DNA from: Methylococcaceae bacterium
GTDB lineage: Bacteria; Pseudomonadota; Gammaproteobacteria; Methylococcales; Methylomonadaceae
Length of the DNA stretch: 64,000 nt
Reading direction: 5' to 3'
NCBI GenBank assembly: GCA_013140705.1
Contig: JABFSH010000038.1
Coordinates: 1-64,000 of the forward strand
How positions within the stretch are numbered: position 1 is the first letter of the stretch; each line of letters starts with the position of its first letter. The translations under genes were made by a program, and so were the position numbers. Below, piece by piece: positions 1-10,324 of the stretch. The notes under the pieces are model-generated. The model had not been told where the DNA came from. It saw only the letters and a list, made by a program, of their open reading frames with translations, and did no database searches.

Positions 1-650
1 TGCCCTACATGATTAAAGCCAAAAATGGACAGGTCCGTGATGATGCAGTCCGGCCCGCGCCCACGAAAAGAGAGACTGGAGCGCCCCCCCCCTTCTGCCG
101 TCCTATGCCCCACACTGGTCACAAAATCACAGTGATCTACCAAACGGTAACGGCGGCGGCCTTTTTCATCGGGATGAGTCCGGTGCGCGGCGGTCCAGAT
201 CGTGACATGATCGGCATCGCCGGATAAATTGCAACCGCCACCGCCACCCGGCAGTTTTAATGTCAGTCGTTCATTATTCCCCAGACGAGTCACATTCATA
301 TTGCCCCAGCGGTCAATTTGTAAACCCGATAAAAACATGCGGCCTAAGCGGCCGCTGGCGGCTAAATCAAATAATTCTTCAATTGTTAAATGGCATTCTG
401 CGCCCCGATTCATTGCGAAATCGTTAGTCGTAGGCGTTAAAAATGCCGGTGTCGGATTGATGCCGTAAGTTGCTCCGGCTACCAGAATCAAGTTAGGGGC
501 ATGGGTGCGTTTCGCCAAATGCAAAGCCAACTGTACCAAAGGCGACCCGAAGCCATGGAAAGCCAATATCCCATCTTCAATCGACATGGCGATTTGATAA
601 ATCATTAACTCGCCAAGCGTACAGTGAGTAATTTCGGATTTATTACTCAT
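1..650 (-). CDS. CoA-transferase subunit B (IpdB/GctB-like), partial
   Basis: Open reading frame starting at ATG 650 and still open at position 1, so 216 residues of the N-terminal part are visible. The sequence has the class I CoA-transferase beta-subunit pattern: an early FHGFGSPLVQLAL segment, MNRGAECHLTIEELF near residue 90, a Gly-rich LPGGGGGCNLSGDADH loop and a VTSVGHRT strand followed by a conserved TDL segment. Its start overlaps the end of subunit A by 8 bp, which suggests translational coupling. By context it would activate the keto acid made by the upstream coenzyme M pathway. The exact acyl substrate cannot be read from the sequence; IpdAB relatives act on steroid-ring intermediates. 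The 3' end lies outside the window. Confidence 0.8.
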   Translation of the reverse strand, partial: MSNKSEITHCTLGELMIYQIAMSIEDGILAFHGFGSPLVQLALHLAKRTHAPNLILVAGATYGINPTPAFLTPTTNDFAMNRGAECHLTIEELFDLAASGRLGRMFLSGLQIDRWGNMNVTRLGNNERLTLKLPGGGGGCNLSGDADHVTIWTAAHRTHPDEKGRRRYRLVDHCDFVTSVGHRTAEGGGRSSLSFRGRGPDCIITDLSIFGFNHVG

Positions 651-1563
651 AAAGCTGCATCCATTGTTCGATACTTTCATCCCAGCCCTCTAGGCTGGAT
701 AAAGCTGCTTTGCCGCCGATGGCCTCTATGTAACGATCTTGATTCTGACAGTCATAGACAAAGGGATTGAGATAGTTTTCCCGGAAACTGTCCATGCCGT
801 GTTTCGCGGCCTGATAATAGCGATCAGTATGTTTACGGTCATAGGCGTAAAGGGGATAACAGGATGTCGGATGTGCGCCATAAGGCACTTCGCTGATAGC
901 GGTGACGTAAAAATACGGAATTGTTACGCCTTTTTGAGCCAATTCGTCATTGGATATGATTTCTTCAACCGTCGCGACGACTTTTTTAGACGCTTTGGCA
1001 AAAAGAATATCGGCAACCGGCGGCCCTTCAATATGCAGATTGCCATGTTGATCGGCATAGTGAGCATGCAGAATCGCTACATCGGGTTTGAGCGCGGGTA
1101 CCAAAACCAGTTGCTCGCCGGTAAAAGGACAGATCATGGTTTTAAATTCGGGGTGCAACTGCATGAAATCGGTTCCCTGAACTGAACGAATCGGCATGAA
1201 AGGCAAGCCGCTGATCGCTGCCCGGAGCTGCTGGACCAAGGAATAACAACAATTATCCTCAACTTTAACGGTACCCGCTTCACAAGCTCGCCGGTAGTTA
1301 ATGGCCATGCCAAAATCCTGTTCAAAGCCTACATACGATTCTGCACTGGCCGCGACCATCCCGGCACCACATAATAAATCAACATCAATACCATGCGCCG
1401 AACCAACCAGTTTGAGGCCTTTGATGTCTTGCCGGATCAGTTCCCGAAGAGCCGCCATCGGTTCGCGCCATGACAAGCCGCCGCCAATGGCGACGCAGTC
1501 GCCATTTTTTACATGCGCAACAAGTTCATTGAGTGAGCATCGTTTATCAGCTTGAGTGTACAT
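643..1563 (-). CDS. CoA-transferase subunit A (IpdA/GctA-like)
   Basis: A 306-residue protein of the class I CoA-transferase alpha family, of the size usual for IpdA/GctA. Visible landmarks are GGGLSWREPMAALREL near the N-terminus (Gly-rich loop), LVGSAHGIDVDLLCGAG, and PDVAILHAHYADQHGNLHIEGP in the second half, the typical alpha-subunit motif. It lies 11 bp downstream of the SDR gene and overlaps subunit B by 8 bp, so it is in one operon with the epoxide/coenzyme M genes. Family knowledge gives CoA transfer, or ring hydrolysis in IpdAB. The context suggests acetoacetate or a homologous beta-keto acid as substrate (inference). Confidence 0.82.
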   Translation of the reverse strand: MYTQADKRCSLNELVAHVKNGDCVAIGGGLSWREPMAALRELIRQDIKGLKLVGSAHGIDVDLLCGAGMVAASAESYVGFEQDFGMAINYRRACEAGTVKVEDNCCYSLVQQLRAAISGLPFMPIRSVQGTDFMQLHPEFKTMICPFTGEQLVLVPALKPDVAILHAHYADQHGNLHIEGPPVADILFAKASKKVVATVEEIISNDELAQKGVTIPYFYVTAISEVPYGAHPTSCYPLYAYDRKHTDRYYQAAKHGMDSFRENYLNPFVYDCQNQDRYIEAIGGKAALSSLEGWDESIEQWMQLYE

Positions 1564-1574
1564 GGCTTAAAAAC

Positions 1575-2342
1575 TCATAATGCTGTCATCCCGCCATCGA
1601 CAGTAAACGTCGAGCCGCAGATAAAACTGGCTTCATCGGAAGCCAAAAACAACACCACGGCAACAATCTCTTCGGGTTTACCGAACCGTCCTATCGGGTA
1701 TTTACTTAAACGTTTGATCATCATGTCTTCAGATTCGTCGGTTGCGAGAATTTGCCGCCCCATATCCGTATCGGCAATCATGCCGGGACAAATGCAGTTG
1801 ACGCGTATACCTAGCTTTGAATAATCTACCGCCATTTGCTTGGTCAAACCAATGACTGCTGCCTTGGAAGTACAATAGGCCGCCATATTGGGAATACCCA
1901 CCATACCAGCTATAGAACCAAAGTTAATGATGGTACCGCCTCTTTGTTTCATCGCCGGCAGTGCAAGCTTCGCACACAGGTAGGTGCCGTTTACATTAAC
2001 TGACATGACGCTATTCCATGTTTCAGGTTCAGTGGTTTCAACGGAACCAAAATCAGCGATACCGGCATTATTTATCAAAATATCGAGTACCCCCGAAAAT
2101 TCCTCAATCAATTTGGAAAAGGTGTTTGAAACTGCCTGAGGATTTGATACATCCAGTTGATACGCTTTGACAACTATGCCATGGGCACTTAAAGCTTGGG
2201 CTGCATTCAATAAAGCGGCTTCGTTAACATCCAATAGTGCAAGCGATGCCCCTTCCATACCGAGGCGTCGGGCGATGTCATACCCCATGCCGGTGGCAGC
2301 ACCGGTTATAACAGCCTTTTTTCCTTGAAATCGATGGCTCAT
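1575..2342 (-). CDS. SDR dehydrogenase, probable 2-hydroxyalkyl-CoM dehydrogenase
   Basis: A short-chain dehydrogenase of about 255 residues. It has the cofactor loop TGAATGMGYDIA, the NNAG motif (LINNAGIADFG), catalytic Ser in FGSIAGMVG, and Tyr/Lys in AAYCTSKAAV, followed by the PG motif after the active site. The start may be ATG 2348 or 2342; 2342 gives MSHRFQGKK, which fits the family better. It sits directly behind the 2-oxopropyl-CoM reductase/carboxylase gene, where Xanthobacter carries its R- and S-hydroxypropyl-CoM dehydrogenases. Oxidation of the hydroxyalkyl thioether to the ketoalkyl-CoM is therefore the likely step. Only one such SDR is present, and I cannot assign R or S specificity from sequence alone. 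Generic SDR function remains possible. Confidence 0.8.
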   Translation of the reverse strand: MSHRFQGKKAVITGAATGMGYDIARRLGMEGASLALLDVNEAALLNAAQALSAHGIVVKAYQLDVSNPQAVSNTFSKLIEEFSGVLDILINNAGIADFGSVETTEPETWNSVMSVNVNGTYLCAKLALPAMKQRGGTIINFGSIAGMVGIPNMAAYCTSKAAVIGLTKQMAVDYSKLGIRVNCICPGMIADTDMGRQILATDESEDMMIKRLSKYPIGRFGKPEEIVAVVLFLASDEASFICGSTFTVDGGMTAL

Positions 2343-2367
2343 GATCATGTTAAATAATTAATTAGGC

Positions 2368-3933
2368 TTACATATCTTTAAAATGAGGATCACCAGCGCG
2401 TAATCGGCATAATTGAATGAAATAACTGGGGCTGATGAATAATTCGTCCATTTCGGCCAGATCGTCCATCGTTAATCCTTTTTTTATCAAGTAATTGAGA
2501 TACTGAAATCCATCTTTTGCACCATAGCCGATATGAGTAGCGCCCAAAATTTTTCGGGTATCGCCATCGATAATCAGTTTATGAAATCCTGACATGCGCG
2601 GTTTTGCCATTAAGTACAGCATCATTCGATCACCAGCGGGCAAGCCCACATCAAAACCATTCGGGTTGTCGGGCGGTAATTTCATGATTTTTACATTGGC
2701 ATGGCGTTGACGCGCTTCTTCTTCGCTTAACCCTAGCCAGCATACCTCGTAATGCGTATGCATGAAATCAGGGTAATCAGCCGCTTTGTACTCACTGACT
2801 TGCCCCATGATATTTTTAGCTGCGCACACACCTTCTTTCCTGGCTTTAAACATTTCCATCGGCGGACCGGTCACATCACCGACAGCATAAACATTGGGAA
2901 TCGAGGTTTGCATGTGTCGATTTACCTTGATGAAGCCTCTTTCGCCCGTTTCCAGGCCCAATATTTGGGCAATTTGTTCTGAGTTGGCCTGTTCACCTAG
3001 CCCCATAAAAACAAAATCGGTATCGACATTGATTATGCCATCGGACGTTTTTATAGAAACCGACTTCACCTTACCTTGTGAGTCCCCCTGGATAGTCATT
3101 AATTCTGCATTTTCCAAAAACTCCATGCCTTGTTCCTCCATCATGAGTATGGCGTAGGCACGGGATTCAACATCCTTAAGCATGGGCATTACTTGATGTC
3201 TCGCTACAACCAGCGTACGCCGTCCTGTCGCATTAAAAAAACAGCCGTATTCAATCGCTGATTTTCCTCCACCAATGACGATTATCGTATTACCCGGTTC
3301 AAAATCCAGGTTTTCGACCAAGGATTGGGAATTAAATACACCTTTTAATGTTGAACCTGGAATATCAGATAAGACAGGTTTCGCACCCAAGGCTAATACC
3401 AGGTTTTTAGCATGGAACTTACAATCACCAACTTGAACAGTGTGAGGATCAATAATTGAGAACGCTGCATTCAATACAAACTCCAATCCAAGTTGCTCCT
3501 TACTCTGGTAGTTCATTACGGCATGAGGACCAACGCGGCCACAGCGGAAAAACTCGATGATTGATTTGATCGAAACCACTTTATCTTCGATCTGTTGAAA
3601 CCAAAGTTGCCCTGAAAACGTACGTTCCAGCATGAGCTGCGCTGCACAATCCGAAAATAAATGATGCGGAACACAAGCTTGATGAGGGCAGGAACCGCCC
3701 AGAAACGGCCAGCGATCGATAATCAGCACACGCCCGCCAAGAGCCCGCAAATAGGCAGCACCAAAGCGTCCAGCAGCACCGCCGCCCAGAAAAATGGCAT
3801 CAAATTCGCGAGCATCGTTTGGGTTTATATTGACAATAGGTTCGCTACCACCGGATTCCAGTGCTTCTGCCACAACGGCTTGCCACTTTGCGATGGTAAA
3901 GCAGTCTCCCCAAACATCTATTGCAGTAGTCAT
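2368..3933 (-). CDS. xecC: 2-oxopropyl-CoM reductase, carboxylating (2-KPCC)
   Basis: A 521-residue FAD disulfide oxidoreductase. The characterised enzyme cleaves the thioether of 2-ketopropyl-CoM and carboxylates the product to acetoacetate, using NADPH. Features: FAD loop FLGGGAAGR with Arg56, redox disulfide in GGSCPHQACVPHH (Cys82 and Cys87, His84 between), GPHAVM (His137, Met140), NAD(P) loop VIGGGKSAIEYG, and the substrate-site stretch MEMFKARK. Residue numbers in the first half coincide with those known for the Xanthobacter enzyme. The C-terminal segment reads DELFISPSYFIQLCRLRAG: the Phe of the known Phe501/His506 pair is kept (Phe499 here), but His506 is replaced by Tyr504. It lies between the CoM transferase and the SDR on the same strand. 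Confidence 0.93.
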   Translation of the reverse strand: MTTAIDVWGDCFTIAKWQAVVAEALESGGSEPIVNINPNDAREFDAIFLGGGAAGRFGAAYLRALGGRVLIIDRWPFLGGSCPHQACVPHHLFSDCAAQLMLERTFSGQLWFQQIEDKVVSIKSIIEFFRCGRVGPHAVMNYQSKEQLGLEFVLNAAFSIIDPHTVQVGDCKFHAKNLVLALGAKPVLSDIPGSTLKGVFNSQSLVENLDFEPGNTIIVIGGGKSAIEYGCFFNATGRRTLVVARHQVMPMLKDVESRAYAILMMEEQGMEFLENAELMTIQGDSQGKVKSVSIKTSDGIINVDTDFVFMGLGEQANSEQIAQILGLETGERGFIKVNRHMQTSIPNVYAVGDVTGPPMEMFKARKEGVCAAKNIMGQVSEYKAADYPDFMHTHYEVCWLGLSEEEARQRHANVKIMKLPPDNPNGFDVGLPAGDRMMLYLMAKPRMSGFHKLIIDGDTRKILGATHIGYGAKDGFQYLNYLIKKGLTMDDLAEMDELFISPSYFIQLCRLRAGDPHFKDM

Positions 3934-4017
3934 CTAAAGTTACAGCTAAGTAAAGCCGCTAGATCAAGCTGTTTAACTTCGTTTGTTACGAAACCAACTT
4001 CAAGACCTGATACTCTT

Positions 4018-5121
4018 TCATTTTGCTAGCTCATTACGGACTATTTTTGCCCCTTCAACCATGGCATGCAGTTTGTCCTGGCAGATATAGCGCTGTAGCA
4101 AGATTAACCCGCAGTCAGTCGTAACACCTAATTGTTCTGCCGGAACTACCGTGAGTAATTGACGAATTTTTGCTGCGACCTGTTCAGCGGTTTCGGTGAC
4201 TGTGCTTTTGACATCGATGACACCCGCCCAGAACATCATATTCTTGGGGATTGGATGTTGTTTTAGTATTTCGAGACCCGATGCGTCAAAAGAAATGCGG
4301 CCTATCCCTTCGATGTTAAACACATCGATTTTGGCTTCATAGGATTTTGGCACCACGGATGAAGTAGGATTCGGCGCTTTAGCGTTTTGAGCACGTTTGG
4401 TTAAATCAAAGACCTCACCGGTACCCGCCGTTTCATCAGGATAATAAGCGGGTGTGCCGCCCCAATTACCCCAACAGATATGGCATACAATCTTGGCGTT
4501 TTTAACGCCTGAAACTGCACGGTTGAAAGCTTCGATAGCCCAATCTTCATAAAAATAAGGCCAGGTAAATTCGTCAAGTTGAATATAATCAACCCCCAAT
4601 TCATCAACGGCCAAAATATCTTCGTTGATAGCCGCGGCAATAGCCATTGCACGATCGCGGCTGTTGGGATAGTGCAGATCATTGGTGCATTGAGCCAAGA
4701 CCTGAACACCGGTGTATTGAACTTTGACAGGTTTATTGGTCGCCCGCTTGAGGGCGCGTGCTTGTTCAACCATGATTTGACCGCGACGCTTTATTTCCTG
4801 CGCAACCGTCGCCGAATGCAATCGGCTGTAAATCGGAAAACCGAGATGGCTTCCAGAAAGGTCATAACCTAATCGATTGAAGTAGTAATAGAGAGCCGCA
4901 TCGGCATAGTTATCACCCTGTAACCGACCGTCCGCGATAATATCCAGACCGGCATTAACTTGATCGGTCACGATAGCCGCCATTGCATCTTCCAGTGCCT
5001 CCCGCCACATCGCATCCGGCGGCTGACGGTCACCTTTGAAATGTCTGGCAAAATCAGCATCCCACCATCTTGGGTTAGGATAATTGCCGACCATACTTGT
5101 TGGAATCAATACCTTATTCAT
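4018..5121 (-). CDS. xecA: Epoxyalkane:coenzyme M transferase
   Basis: A 367-residue MetE-like zinc enzyme. The known enzyme opens an aliphatic epoxide with the thiol of coenzyme M to give 2-hydroxyalkyl-CoM. The zinc ligands are visible as CHICWGN (His214, Cys216) and TTDCGL (Cys337). The spacing equals His218/Cys220/Cys341 of the Xanthobacter protein with a uniform shift of four residues. The N-terminus SMVGNYPNPRWW and the DEFTWPY segment are also family-like. ATG 5121 is preceded by an AGAGGTG ribosome-binding site. It is the first gene of the CoM-dependent block, with the carboxylase 84 bp downstream. A methionine-synthase role is unlikely given the length and neighbours. Confidence 0.92.
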   Translation of the reverse strand: MNKVLIPTSMVGNYPNPRWWDADFARHFKGDRQPPDAMWREALEDAMAAIVTDQVNAGLDIIADGRLQGDNYADAALYYYFNRLGYDLSGSHLGFPIYSRLHSATVAQEIKRRGQIMVEQARALKRATNKPVKVQYTGVQVLAQCTNDLHYPNSRDRAMAIAAAINEDILAVDELGVDYIQLDEFTWPYFYEDWAIEAFNRAVSGVKNAKIVCHICWGNWGGTPAYYPDETAGTGEVFDLTKRAQNAKAPNPTSSVVPKSYEAKIDVFNIEGIGRISFDASGLEILKQHPIPKNMMFWAGVIDVKSTVTETAEQVAAKIRQLLTVVPAEQLGVTTDCGLILLQRYICQDKLHAMVEGAKIVRNELAK

Positions 5122-5540: not shown

Positions 5541-6956
5541 TTATTCGCGGCCATATTTCTGCCAATGTTGCTCAAAAAGATTGGTTTCATCAAGCGGTCT
5601 GGCTTTGATTGGCCGTGAAACCCAGGTCAGGTTAATCATGTGGCGAGCGTTGACATTTTCCGTTGTTATATTACCTCCCCAAGTTCCGCAGCTTAGGCTT
5701 AGTGTATACGGCAGTCCATTTCGGGGACTGCCCGCGCCTTCATTTAAACTCTGATTCACCATTACCCTTGCAGTCTTGGTTTGCATTGCCAAAGCCATCG
5801 CATGGTCATCATTGTTCGTATGGATGCCACACGTGTGACCCTGCCCCTGATACTCGGTAATCGCGTTAACTTGACTTATGGCGTTGTTAATGTCGCCAAT
5901 ATATTTGTATAGCGTTAATACGGGCGACAGCTTTTCACCTGAAAAAGGATACTCAGAACCAGCTCCATTTTCCTCAACAATCAAACAACTACAGTCTTCT
6001 GGCACAGTAAAGCCGGCCAACTTTGCAATATGGACTGGCGATTTGGCAATGACATCAACGCTCGGAATATGGTTTTCAGGCGTAGGCCACATCAAAACTT
6101 GTAACTTGTTCTTTTCATCCGCATCACAAAGATAGGCGCCCAATTTTTGCAGACAGTCAATTAATTCGCGATAAATTGAATCCTGTGCAACGACAGAATT
6201 ATCAGCCAAACAACTGGTCGCGAAATCAAATTTCTTGGCTACCACAATCGTATTGGCTGCATCGTCCAGATCGGCGGTTTCATCAACCACATGGACTGAA
6301 TTACCAACCCCGACACCATACGCCGGCGTGCCGGAACTGTAAGCCGCTTTTACCATTGCGGCACCACCGGTTGCGACAATCAAGTCGGCTTGTTGCATCA
6401 ATTGCTGGGTTTTCGGGAGTGATGGTTTTTCGATGACTTGTACCAAATCGGCTGGCGCGCCGACTTGTTCGCAAGCTTCGCGCATGAACTTCACGGCTAG
6501 TTCAGTCGTAAGTTGCGTCCGGGGATGCGCGGCGACAATAATGGCATTGCGGCCTTTCAAGGCCAGCAACGTTTTTAAAGGCGGGGTCGCGTCAGGGCCT
6601 GTCGTAGGAATCAGCGCAGCAATAACACCCACCGGTTTGGCGATTTTAATCAGGCCTTTTTCGGGGATTTCCTCAACAATACCGACTGTTTTCACTGCCT
6701 GCATATCACGCAAAGTCCCCATGCAGCGGTTACGAATCTTGCTGACTTTATCGTTGTAATTGCCAAAGCCGCCCTCATCAACCGCCATATTCGCCAATTC
6801 TTTAGCGCGGTCTTCCCGGACAATCGCCCAACAAACCGCTGTCACCAATTCATCAACCTGTTCTTGGGTGTAATTGGCGATCTTGTTTTGAGCAACGCGG
6901 GCTTTCTGGATATATACCGCTATTTCATTAATCTCTGGCTGAGTATTTGCGTTCAT
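5541..6956 (-). CDS. CoA-acylating aldehyde dehydrogenase, sulfoacetaldehyde (SauS) type
   Basis: About 471 residues from ATG 6956, chosen because GGAA stands 7 nt upstream; an in-frame start at 6989 is also possible. The protein belongs to the acylating aldehyde dehydrogenases (EutE/AdhE-N/SauS): nucleotide-site segment GVIAALIPTTGPDATPPLK, catalytic Cys in FDFATSCLADNSVV, and a C-terminus with GTWGGNITTENVNARH as I recall for sulfoacetaldehyde dehydrogenases. Such enzymes oxidise an aldehyde to its acyl-CoA with NAD(P). Sulfoacetaldehyde is a precursor or breakdown product related to coenzyme M, which makes the placement beside CoM-using genes suggestive. The substrate is inferred; propanal or acetaldehyde cannot be excluded. 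Confidence 0.72.
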   Translation of the reverse strand: MNANTQPEINEIAVYIQKARVAQNKIANYTQEQVDELVTAVCWAIVREDRAKELANMAVDEGGFGNYNDKVSKIRNRCMGTLRDMQAVKTVGIVEEIPEKGLIKIAKPVGVIAALIPTTGPDATPPLKTLLALKGRNAIIVAAHPRTQLTTELAVKFMREACEQVGAPADLVQVIEKPSLPKTQQLMQQADLIVATGGAAMVKAAYSSGTPAYGVGVGNSVHVVDETADLDDAANTIVVAKKFDFATSCLADNSVVAQDSIYRELIDCLQKLGAYLCDADEKNKLQVLMWPTPENHIPSVDVIAKSPVHIAKLAGFTVPEDCSCLIVEENGAGSEYPFSGEKLSPVLTLYKYIGDINNAISQVNAITEYQGQGHTCGIHTNNDDHAMALAMQTKTARVMVNQSLNEGAGSPRNGLPYTLSLSCGTWGGNITTENVNARHMINLTWVSRPIKARPLDETNLFEQHWQKYGRE

Positions 6957-7741
6957 GAACATTCCAAATTGAATTTTGATGATCGGCAAGAGTTAACGCT
7001 ACATCTTGTTGCAACTTGCGTCAAGCGGCTTATTCTTTTGATGCGAAAAATATTATTTTTTCTATTAAATCGGTTTGTTAACTTTATTTAGCTCAAAGCG
7101 CGCCATTCTTGACAGGCACTAATCTGACGCAGCAATACCGATCTCCATTTGTCATGGCAAGATGAACGCAATAAAAAGGGCGTTCGTGTAGACTGGCGTT
7201 TTACGACTCAGGATGCAAGAATAAAATTGAAATCACTTTATCCAACAATGTAACATTGGCGTACTACTAGACTTCAATAGTTTCTATTATAAACGGTTTT
7301 AAAAGCCGAATTTTGTCGCCCTGGATGCGCTATGCGATGTGTGATTATTTTGGCGCTGGCGCGGGCCCCAGGGTGTTCGATTTTAACGTGGGGAATTGGT
7401 TCGATAGAGGCTGTGATTGATCTTTTAACGCCAGTTTAGCGGCGCTGCCCGGATTTTAGGTTTTTAACAAAAAGCCGTGTCAAGCACTTTTTGAATTATT
7501 TTTCGCTCAATAGTTTATTTTTTCAAAATAAAATGGCTGGCTTTGAATGGCAAGTCGCTAAATCTGGCATTAAAACTCTGTTCAATTTAGAATAGCAGCA
7601 CAATTACAAAACTCGAAGGTTATCGATATTCGCCTTTATCATTTCCATCGTTGATATGTCTATCAGGGATGAGCTGTATTTTTGACGAATTTTTGATCCG
7701 CGAACTTTAATACTGTGTTTATTCACAACGACGGACCCTTA
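6957..7741. other. Long divergent intergenic region (epoxide cluster / cysDN)
   Basis: About 785 bp between two divergently oriented genes. It must hold the promoters of the aldehyde-dehydrogenase operon (minus) and of cysD (plus). I see no coding remnant, RNA gene or riboswitch I can name. Around 7330-7470 there is a GC-richer patch with short palindromes in otherwise AT-rich DNA. Confidence 0.4.
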
Positions 7742-8650
7742 ATGACCGATTATAAACTGACACACTTAAAAAAACTGGAAGCTGAAAGTATTCATATCAT
7801 TCGAGAAGTGGCGGCAGAATTTGAGCGTCCTGTCATGCTGTATTCTATCGGTAAGGATTCGGCAGTCATGCTGCATCTGACGATGAAGGCCTTTTTCCCC
7901 GGCAAACCGCCATTTCCCTTGATGCACGTGGATACGACCTGGAAATTCAGGGAAATGATCGAGTTTCGCGACAAAATCATCAAAAAATTGGGTCTTGAGT
8001 TATTGGTTTATATTAATCAGGATGGTGTTGATCAAGGTATTGGTCCGTTCACTCACGGCAGCAAAAAGCACACCGATGTTATGAAAACCGATGCGCTGAA
8101 GCAGGCTTTAAATAAATATCAATTTGATGCAGCCTTCGGGGGCGCAAGACGAGATGAAGAAAAGTCCCGCGCAAAAGAGCGAGTTTACTCGTTTCGGGAC
8201 AAAAATCATCGTTGGGATCCCAAAAATCAGCGTCCTGAATTATGGAATATTTATAACGGCAAAATAGACAAGGGCGAAAGCATTCGGGTTTTCCCGCTTT
8301 CCAATTGGACCGAACTCGATATCTGGCAATATATACACCTGGAGAGCATTCCCATTGTGCCATTATATTTTGCTAAGGAACGTCCGGTCGTCAGCAAAGA
8401 CGGCATGTTGATCATGGTTGATGATGAACGCATGCCGATTGGTCCGAACGATACAGTCGAAATGAAAAAAGTGCGTTTCCGGACCTTAGGTTGTTATCCG
8501 CTGACGGGTGCCGTCGAGTCGACAGCGACGACTTTGCCGGAAATTATTCAGGAAATGTTATTAACCACCACCTCTGAACGTCAGGGACGGCTCATCGACC
8601 ACGATCAGGCGGGTTCGATGGAACAAAAAAAGCGCGAAGGCTACTTTTAA
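7742..8650 (+). CDS. cysD: Sulfate adenylyltransferase small subunit CysD
   Basis: 302 residues from ATG 7742, the same length as E. coli CysD; the open frame extends upstream to 7715 but family alignment favours 7742 ([16 protein letters not shown]). With CysN it makes adenosine 5'-phosphosulfate from ATP and sulfate. The PP-loop ATP pyrophosphatase motif is seen in [14 protein letters not shown], and [15 protein letters not shown] is the conserved substrate loop. The C-terminus [13 protein letters not shown]-like ending (here [13 protein letters not shown]) is characteristic. cysN follows after 45 bp. No other sulfate-assimilation gene is in the window. Confidence 0.97.
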
Positions 8651-8695
8651 ACGCTGCTGTTGATTGTCATCAATTACTGGAATTCAGAGAACATC

Positions 8696-10324
8696 ATGTC
8701 CCACCAATCCGATTTAATCAGTACCGATATTAATGCGTATCTTGCCCAGCACGAGCGTAAAGAGCTGTTACGTTTTTTAACCTGTGGCAACGTCGATGAC
8801 GGCAAAAGCACACTGATCGGGCGTTTGCTGCACGATTCCAAAATGATTTATGAAGATCAACTGGCCGCCGTTCAGGCTGACAGTGTCAAATCGGGGACCA
8901 CGGGTGCGGGCAAAATTGATTTGGCCTTGCTGGTTGATGGTTTGCAGGCTGAACGTGAACAAGGCATCACCATCGATGTTGCGTATCGTTATTTTTCTAC
9001 CGCTACACGCAAATTCATCATTGCCGATACGCCAGGCCATGAGCAATACACCAGAAATATGGCCACGGGTGCTTCCACCTGTGATTTGGCGATTATCCTG
9101 ATCGATGCGCGTTATGGCGTGCAGACACAGACTAAACGTCACAGTTTTATTGCGTCGTTGTTAGGAATTCAGCACATTATTGTCGCGGTCAATAAAATGG
9201 ACCTGGTTGATTACAGTGAAGCGACCTTCAATAAAATCAAACAGGATTATTTGCAATTTACCGAAACGCTGGATTTACACGATATCTGCTTTATACCGCT
9301 TTCCGCACTGGACGGGGACAATGTTGTCAATCGCAGTGACAACATGTCCTGGTTTGCTGGCGAGCCGTTAATGCAGGCGCTTAACAGCATCAAAATTGCC
9401 AATGATCATAATTTTGCCGATGCCCGTTTCCCGGTTCAGTTTGTTAATCGACCCAACCTTGATTTCCGGGGGTTCTGTGGGACGGTTGCGTCCGGTATTT
9501 TCAGAAAAGGCGATCAAATAACTGCGCTGCCATCCGCTAAGCGCAGCACCATCAAATCGATTGTGACTTACGATGGAGACCTCGATCAGGCTTATCCGCC
9601 GATGGCTGTGACGTTGACGCTTGAAGATGAAATCGATATCAGTCGTGGCGATATGATCATAGGGCATCAAGAATTGCAGGCAACTATTTCCGATAAATTC
9701 AAGGCGACCATCGTCTGGATGGCTGAAAAGCCGCTGAATCCCGGTCGGCAATATACCATCAAGCTGTCTACCCGCAGTGTCAGCGGTTCCATAGCCATGA
9801 TTCATCATCGAATTGATGTCAACACGCTGGAACACCATGACGCCAATGAGTTAAAGCTCAATGAAATAGGTGCCTGTACGGTTTCAGTCAATGCCCCCAT
9901 CGTATTCGATCCTTACAAAATGAATAGAGGCACAGGTGGCTTCATCATTATCGACCGACTGACGAACGGTACCGTTGGAGCTGGCATGATCAGCGGTGGG
10001 ACCGATGATGAAACGCAACAACCGGTAAGTACCAAAGAACGGGCCGCACGATTCAGTCAGGTGGCCACTGCGATTATTCTCAAAGGAGCACTGGCGACGG
10101 ACACTGCCTACCGACTGGAAAGAAGGCTATTTGATAATGGTCATGCGGCAACAATTCTTGAGACTCAAGAAACAGAGACGCTAGTTCAAGTTGTCAAGAA
10201 TGCCGGCTTGATTTGTTTGCTAGTGAGTGGTGACGCAGGCTTAGCAGATGTAAGCTTTGATTGTGACAGGCTTTCTCTGGATGATATTTACAGCCAATTG
10301 AAAGATCAAAAGATAATCTATTAA
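8696..10324 (+). CDS. cysN: Sulfate adenylyltransferase GTPase subunit CysN with vestigial APS-kinase tail
   Basis: 542 residues from ATG 8696 (MSHQSDLIS). GTPase motifs are present: GNVDDGKST (G1), DTPGHEQYT (G3), NKMD (G4). It drives APS synthesis by CysD. E. coli CysN stops near residue 475; here about 75 extra residues follow. They read like a shortened APS kinase (CysC) domain: [17 protein letters not shown], then [15 protein letters not shown] and [15 protein letters not shown] match the CysC landmarks, but the P-loop (normally GLSGSGKST) is replaced by GALATDTAY. The domain therefore cannot bind ATP in the usual way, and a separate CysC would be needed if PAPS is made. Confidence 0.96.

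Follow-up and report, generated by a model that had tools for sequence, protein, structure and literature searches.

A thirteen-gene methanotroph operon for coenzyme M synthesis and probable removal of accidentally formed epoxides

The window analysed here, 64,000 nucleotides at positions 1 to 64,000 of contig JABFSH010000038.1 (C39) in Methylococcaceae bacterium assembly GCA_013140705.1, has at its 5' end the 5' half of a single 13-gene operon of a gammaproteobacterial methanotroph. This operon carries the gene for an epoxyalkane:coenzyme M transferase (EaCoMT, EtnE/XecA) together with a complete set of genes for coenzyme M (CoM) synthesis, and the CoM made is probably used to disarm toxic epoxides arising accidentally from gases such as ethylene. 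The reading that we favour is CoM-dependent removal of short epoxides formed as accidental products of the particulate methane monooxygenase (pMMO), by an epoxyethane core to which a short-chain dehydrogenase/reductase (SDR) and a homologue of 2-ketopropyl-CoM oxidoreductase/carboxylase (2-KPCC) form an optional addition. Beyond EaCoMT and CoM synthesis, the roles proposed below come from homology and from patterns of gene presence. Any methanotroph with a methane monooxygenase risks forming epoxides from ambient ethylene, and only recently has CoM been found in bacteria of this aerobic methane-oxidizing type. Clusters of this kind have already been published; Toppings et al. (2024) report them in Methylohalobius crimeensis and 14 of 150 methanotroph genomes and conclude that they detoxify epoxyethane made by pMMO and do not support growth (PMC11507031). 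The window is a further case.

The genes run, all on one strand (the minus strand of the window), in the order aldehyde dehydrogenase, EaCoMT, 2-KPCC homologue, SDR, subunits A and B of a glutaconate-CoA-transferase-fold pair, XcbA, ComA, XcbC, GMC oxidoreductase, XcbD, XcbE and a CoA-disulfide-reductase-like (CoADR-like) protein. An earlier note on this DNA had described five of them as an operon spanning positions 1–5121; the genes, their strand and their names are confirmed by coordinates and homology, but the extent was too short, as the operon also includes the aldehyde dehydrogenase (5541–6989) and the genes beyond the contig end. The window starts at the first base of C39, in a genome of 4.28 Mb that is 99.97 % complete. 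The first 137 bases of C39 (positions 1–137, an overlap without strand) correspond to the last 137 bases of contig C29 (locus L002), with 133 identities and one homopolymer difference. That difference in length falls inside the gene for subunit B (3–680), which loses its 3' part at the contig end and has its remainder on C29, and is most simply an assembly error. On C29, XcbA and the six genes listed after it follow on the same strand, and seven relatives have the same genes in the same order on single contigs, contig ends excepted. Together, the overlap and the gene order in relatives indicate that the operon is continuous and self-sufficient in CoM.

The earlier note had left the source of CoM open, and the rest of the genome supplies it. 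The bacterial pathway is encoded in full on C29, where all five proteins exceed their curated NCBIfam cut-offs (score/cut-off: XcbA 490/150, ComA/XcbB 306/280, XcbC 766/575, XcbD 718/600 and XcbE 526/450). A search for monooxygenases, proposed at the same time, gave a divided answer: pmoA had three matches in the genome, whereas an alkene monooxygenase was not found, with no match to PF02332, the soluble diiron monooxygenase family, anywhere in the genome and a positive control in two genomes that carry the enzyme. These two results mark the host as a methanotroph with particulate methane monooxygenase only. The operon is also carried by the named relatives Methyloglobulus morosus KoM1, Candidatus Methylobacter oryzae KRF1 and Methylomicrobium sp. 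wino1, which contig identity places in the family of the window.

EaCoMT (4018–5121) is 72 % identical to Xaut_5047 (XecA) of Xanthobacter Py2 across 364 residues and has the zinc ligands His214, Cys216 and Cys337. Its best score against a MetE-type NCBIfam model was 186 bits, far below the cut-off of 406, which sets it apart from MetE paralogues and upholds the identification. The protein was found in 16 of the 201 genomes of the sampled family. The operon combines the traits of a methanotroph epoxyethane/CoM cluster, namely EtnE identity above 65 % (measured against XecA and methanotroph relatives rather than against the M. crimeensis protein), CoM synthesis genes and a methanotroph host without alkene monooxygenase. 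A CoM-dependent epoxide pathway of the Xanthobacter or actinobacterial type, as first proposed for these genes, is supported.

Comparison of the clusters separated constant companions of EaCoMT from the 2-KPCC/SDR module. Neighbourhoods were viewed to at most 10 kb on either side of each locus, and loci of the named collection had been retrieved via 2-KPCC, so that clusters having this gene are over-represented there. Among the 16 family genomes with EaCoMT, 2-KPCC was present in nine and absent from seven. In five genomes (G027, G035, G097, G193 and G058), the cluster lacks both 2-KPCC and SDR but has the aldehyde dehydrogenase, EaCoMT, the CoA-transferase pair, the CoM genes and the GMC oxidoreductase. 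In a sixth, G048, such a cluster is decaying (L126): the aldehyde dehydrogenase is broken by stops and EaCoMT is missing, while the CoA-transferase pair, XcbA, ComA, XcbC and GMC are still open. At a threshold of 1e-60, 2-KPCC had no match anywhere in these six genomes. Some of them are drafts, and EaCoMT and GMC are interrupted in G193; most weight is therefore placed on G027 (two contigs, 99 % complete), G035 and G097. Conversely, G051 carries the 2-KPCC/SDR pair alone on one contig (L024, 9350–11713) and the remaining pathway on another (L127), which indicates that the pair is a separable module. A class-wide search of 368 genomes beyond the family found no further 2-KPCC.

The CoA-transferase-fold pair follows EaCoMT and not the product of 2-KPCC. 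Subunit A (643–1563; PF01144, 94 bits; 1POI_A, 138 bits) was present in 15 of the 16 EaCoMT genomes, against nine of 16 for 2-KPCC, and the sole exception was a genome in which the cluster is split by contig ends. To compare active sites, 50 subunit B sequences were aligned with subunit B of glutaconate CoA-transferase (GctB), the sequence of which was checked letter by letter against 1POI_B. All actinobacterial, Acidimicrobiia and Chloroflexi clusters have Glu at the position of the catalytic GctB Glu54, whereas proteobacterial clusters, that of the window among them, have Ala without exception; the Cys of AibB type is likewise absent from subunit B of the window. Loss of the Glu had been considered as a methanotroph-specific trait, an idea rejected when the wider set showed it to be common to all proteobacterial clusters. 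Judged from its distribution and these residues, the pair would be a core part of the system and yet incapable of the usual glutamyl-CoA mechanism, and the proposal that it yields a CoA-bound beta-keto acid is not supported.

The GMC oxidoreductase is a second distinguishing component. Among loci that showed the whole cluster, 12 of the 15 from methanotrophs had it and none of the 22 others did; Fisher tests on such counts ignore kinship and were not used as proof. When one SDR was set aside per 2-KPCC, every cluster without GMC had an additional SDR and no cluster with GMC did, in 40 of 40 clusters (22 with the extra SDR against 18). The two methanotroph clusters without GMC have a second S-type SDR between EaCoMT and 2-KPCC (L020, 8296–9063; L021, 10361–11128). 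Proteins with at least 62 % identity to this GMC occurred in 13 genomes of the family, each time inside such a cluster, and the next GMC in the family was 40 % identical. The catalytic His and Asn motifs are intact, and NCBIfam places the protein beside choline dehydrogenase. Its simplest role would be that of a primary-alcohol dehydrogenase acting on 2-hydroxyethyl-CoM. A literature search pairing GMC oxidoreductase with methanotroph and ethylene found nothing.

The aldehyde dehydrogenase gene heads the operon, as it does in relatives, and encodes an enzyme of the acylating type with the catalytic motif TSCLADNS. It is 68 % identical to its counterpart in the ethene cluster of Nocardioides JS614 and resembles SauS, at 533.6 bits against an NCBIfam equivalog cut-off of 600. 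Since this SauS-like gene and XcbA occur together, the former is not a stand-in for the latter. A catabolic role is favoured for the enzyme, because XcbA is also present and because Xanthobacter makes CoM without a SauS-like gene. A possible chemical rationale is that sulfoacetaldehyde resembles 2-oxoethyl-CoM in being an aldehyde with a sulfonate group.

In the favoured scheme, EaCoMT would join epoxyethane to CoM to give 2-hydroxyethyl-CoM, a primary alcohol, which the GMC flavoenzyme would oxidize to 2-oxoethyl-CoM. The SauS-like dehydrogenase would convert this aldehyde to the CoA thioester CoM-S-CH2-CO-SCoA, and a disulfide reductase, either the 2-KPCC homologue or the CoADR-like protein, would then cut the C–S bond to release acetyl-CoA and free CoM. 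EaCoMT, GMC and the acylating aldehyde dehydrogenase would thus form the core. The SDR and 2-KPCC homologue would be an add-on that most probably handles epoxypropane or offers another way of cleavage. More tentatively, and with somewhat less confidence than in the overall function, the pathway can be viewed as rebuilt: GMC may have replaced the NAD-dependent dehydrogenase for 2-hydroxyethyl-CoM, the acylating aldehyde dehydrogenase may make the thioester directly, the pair without Glu may perform a new reaction, and the branch through 2-KPCC, with Tyr506 and perhaps non-carboxylating, may be optional. The comparison of clusters casts doubt on three published or assumed roles: that 2-KPCC carboxylates, that the transferase pair transfers CoA and that the SauS-like gene takes part in CoM synthesis.

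The 2-KPCC homologue (2368–3933) matches the solved 2-KPCC structure 1MO9 with 702 bits (E 3e-210). It retains the redox pair Cys82/Cys87, the CoM-sulfonate ligands Arg56 and Arg365, His84, His137 and Phe501, the last of which stands where the family has its general His. Both the redox cysteines and the zinc ligands of EaCoMT had been named in the earlier note and are in place. The window, however, has Tyr at residue 506, as do all 15 gammaproteobacterial methanotroph sequences of the tree, two Methylocystis sequences and one betaproteobacterial metagenome-assembled genome (MAG), while nearly all other 2-KPCC sequences have His. The Phe501–His506 pair is required for 2-KPCC to favour CO2 over H+ as electrophile. 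The earlier reading of epoxide carboxylation with CoA activation is only partly borne out, and carboxylation as the defining chemistry of the operon is not supported: the two redox cysteines, both CoM-binding arginines and Phe501 are kept, but His506 is replaced and clusters without 2-KPCC and SDR exist in the same family.

At least two separate changes from His506 to Tyr are required by the 2-KPCC tree. Tyr506 was considered as a marker of ethene use, and this was dropped as the ethene users JS614 and NBB4 have His506. Its occurrence in the gammaproteobacterial clade, Methylocystis and the one betaproteobacterial MAG is suggestive of a tie to methanotrophy, with two independent pairs only. 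That MAG (L061) falls outside the methanotrophs, on a long branch. Gammaproteobacterial methanotroph 2-KPCC sequences formed one clade (SH-aLRT 100) and those of alphaproteobacterial methanotrophs another, which points to few acquisitions by methanotrophs, with later exchange and loss within this group.

The SDR (1575–2348) is the partner of the 2-KPCC homologue. Its best solved match was 4GH5 (248 bits), which we take to be S-hydroxypropyl-CoM dehydrogenase, and it falls in the S-type clade, away from the R-type dehydrogenase of Xanthobacter (R-HPCDH). No R-type dehydrogenase was found in the genome, where the best match to R-HPCDH was this same S-type SDR at 39 %. Growth on propene, for which the pathway is best known, is not supported: alkene monooxygenase and R-type dehydrogenase are both missing, and in the methanotroph studied the function is detoxification of epoxyethane (PMC11507031).

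Two alternative schemes keep 2-KPCC as a carboxylase. In the one that follows the earlier note, EaCoMT, SDR and a carboxylating 2-KPCC would convert epoxypropane into acetoacetate, and the CoA-transferase pair would activate this to acetoacetyl-CoA. Homologues of all its enzymes lie side by side, the 2-KPCC homologue is 58 % identical to that of Xanthobacter with every mapped residue kept except 506, and pMMO is generally known to be able to produce epoxypropane. It is nonetheless unlikely, as the transferase lacks its catalytic Glu and is retained in clusters without 2-KPCC, His506 is Tyr throughout the clade, and no role is left for the aldehyde dehydrogenase and GMC. In the scheme proposed for ethene and vinyl chloride (PMC8727900), the 2-KPCC homologue adds CO2 to 2-ketoethyl-CoM, the resulting malonate semialdehyde is oxidized to malonate, and the CoA-transferase forms malonyl-CoA, which leads on to acetyl-CoA. 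Although this fits the reported induction of the M. crimeensis 2-KPCC homologue by ethylene (PMC11507031), we consider it improbable for the window: clusters exist that are complete except for 2-KPCC, an acylating aldehyde dehydrogenase makes a separate CoA-transferase step unnecessary, and the proteobacterial transferases have no catalytic Glu.

A further alternative assigns the GMC oxidoreductase and the SauS-like dehydrogenase to CoM synthesis instead of epoxide breakdown. Toppings et al. assume this for the dehydrogenase: they regard the sulfoacetaldehyde-dehydrogenase-like gene as an XcbA analogue that serves CoM synthesis (PMC11507031). Many clusters do have GMC between XcbC and XcbD, and sulfoacetaldehyde is the precursor of CoM in archaea (PMC12068725). 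However, GMC and the second SDR substitute for each other, GMC adjoins EaCoMT, SDR or CoA-transferase genes in Methylotetracoccus, Methylocapsa and Methylocystis, XcbA is present too, and the Xcb cluster of Xanthobacter, which produces CoM, contains neither of the two genes. We thus regard a biosynthetic role for the two enzymes as having a low probability.

Removal of epoxyethane through the core enzymes remains our preferred explanation. It agrees with the finding that ethylene induces 11 of the 13 proteins encoded by the homologous M. crimeensis cluster (PMC11507031), and several observations weigh against it. In the same data, ethylene raised the level of the 2-KPCC homologue but not that of the CoADR-like protein (PMC11507031), so that the latter is disfavoured as the cleaving enzyme in M. 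crimeensis. Ethene growers such as JS614 retain both SDR types, and loss of the R-type is therefore no proof of a diet of epoxyethane only. On the EaCoMT tree, independent switches between GMC and SDR went the way the model predicts in each case, but with only four pairs the sign test (P=0.125) could not reach significance. Finally, GMC often lies among the CoM synthesis genes, and a biosynthetic role for it is possible.

The closest known system is the methanotroph cluster of Toppings et al. It shares with the window the type of host (PMC11507031), EaCoMT, SDR, a glutaconate-CoA-transferase-like pair, CoM synthesis, sulfoacetaldehyde-dehydrogenase-like and CoADR-like genes, a 2-KPCC homologue and the absence of an alkene monooxygenase. 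Strain KoM1 appears in Figure 2 of that report, and the operon of Methyloglobulus morosus KoM1 (L029) is nearly the same as that of the window. M. crimeensis itself is described with an acyl-CoA synthetase, a MEDS regulator and the 2-KPCC homologue on the opposite strand, and the text of that paper mentions no GMC; the operon of the window differs in carrying GMC, in lacking an acyl-CoA synthetase and in having 2-KPCC oriented like its neighbours. The epoxide carboxylase operon of Xanthobacter autotrophicus Py2 (pXAUT01) has the same order of EaCoMT, 2-KPCC, SDR, XcbA, ComA, XcbC, XcbD and XcbE. Unlike the window, it has both R and S dehydrogenases and His506. Its SDR and XcbA genes are not separated by a CoA-transferase pair, and the cluster contains neither GMC nor a SauS-like or CoADR-like gene. 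Actinobacterial ethene clusters (Nocardioides JS614, Mycolicibacterium NBB4 and JS60) resemble the window in their CoA-transferase pair, SDR, CoADR-like gene, CoM synthesis and an acylating aldehyde dehydrogenase with 68–70 % identity. They differ in having a soluble alkene monooxygenase, an EaCoMT only about 46 % identical, the transferase Glu and 2-KPCC His506, both R-type and S-type SDRs, and an acyl-CoA ligase in place of GMC. The fold and two-subunit layout of the transferase pair are common to AibAB (5MZW), IpdAB (6CO6) and glutaconate CoA-transferase (1POI); with neither Glu54 nor the AibB-type Cys, the mechanisms of 1POI and AibAB are not transferable to it.

Upstream of the aldehyde dehydrogenase, three relatives have a gene of about 635 residues beginning MLTKSTDTTLRKARHLLVERGELPP (L020, 3230–5140; L021, 14266–16179; L022, 4185–6080), which, judged by eye, looks like an AcoR-type sigma-54 activator. 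The window lacks this gene, and the 725 bases that precede its operon contain no clear gene. Beyond them, sulfate adenylyltransferase genes resembling cysD and cysN are encoded divergently on the plus strand (7715–10324). The proximity of sulfate assimilation genes to CoM synthesis may be meaningful or due to chance; a PAPS reductase gene adjoins the JS614 ethene clusters.

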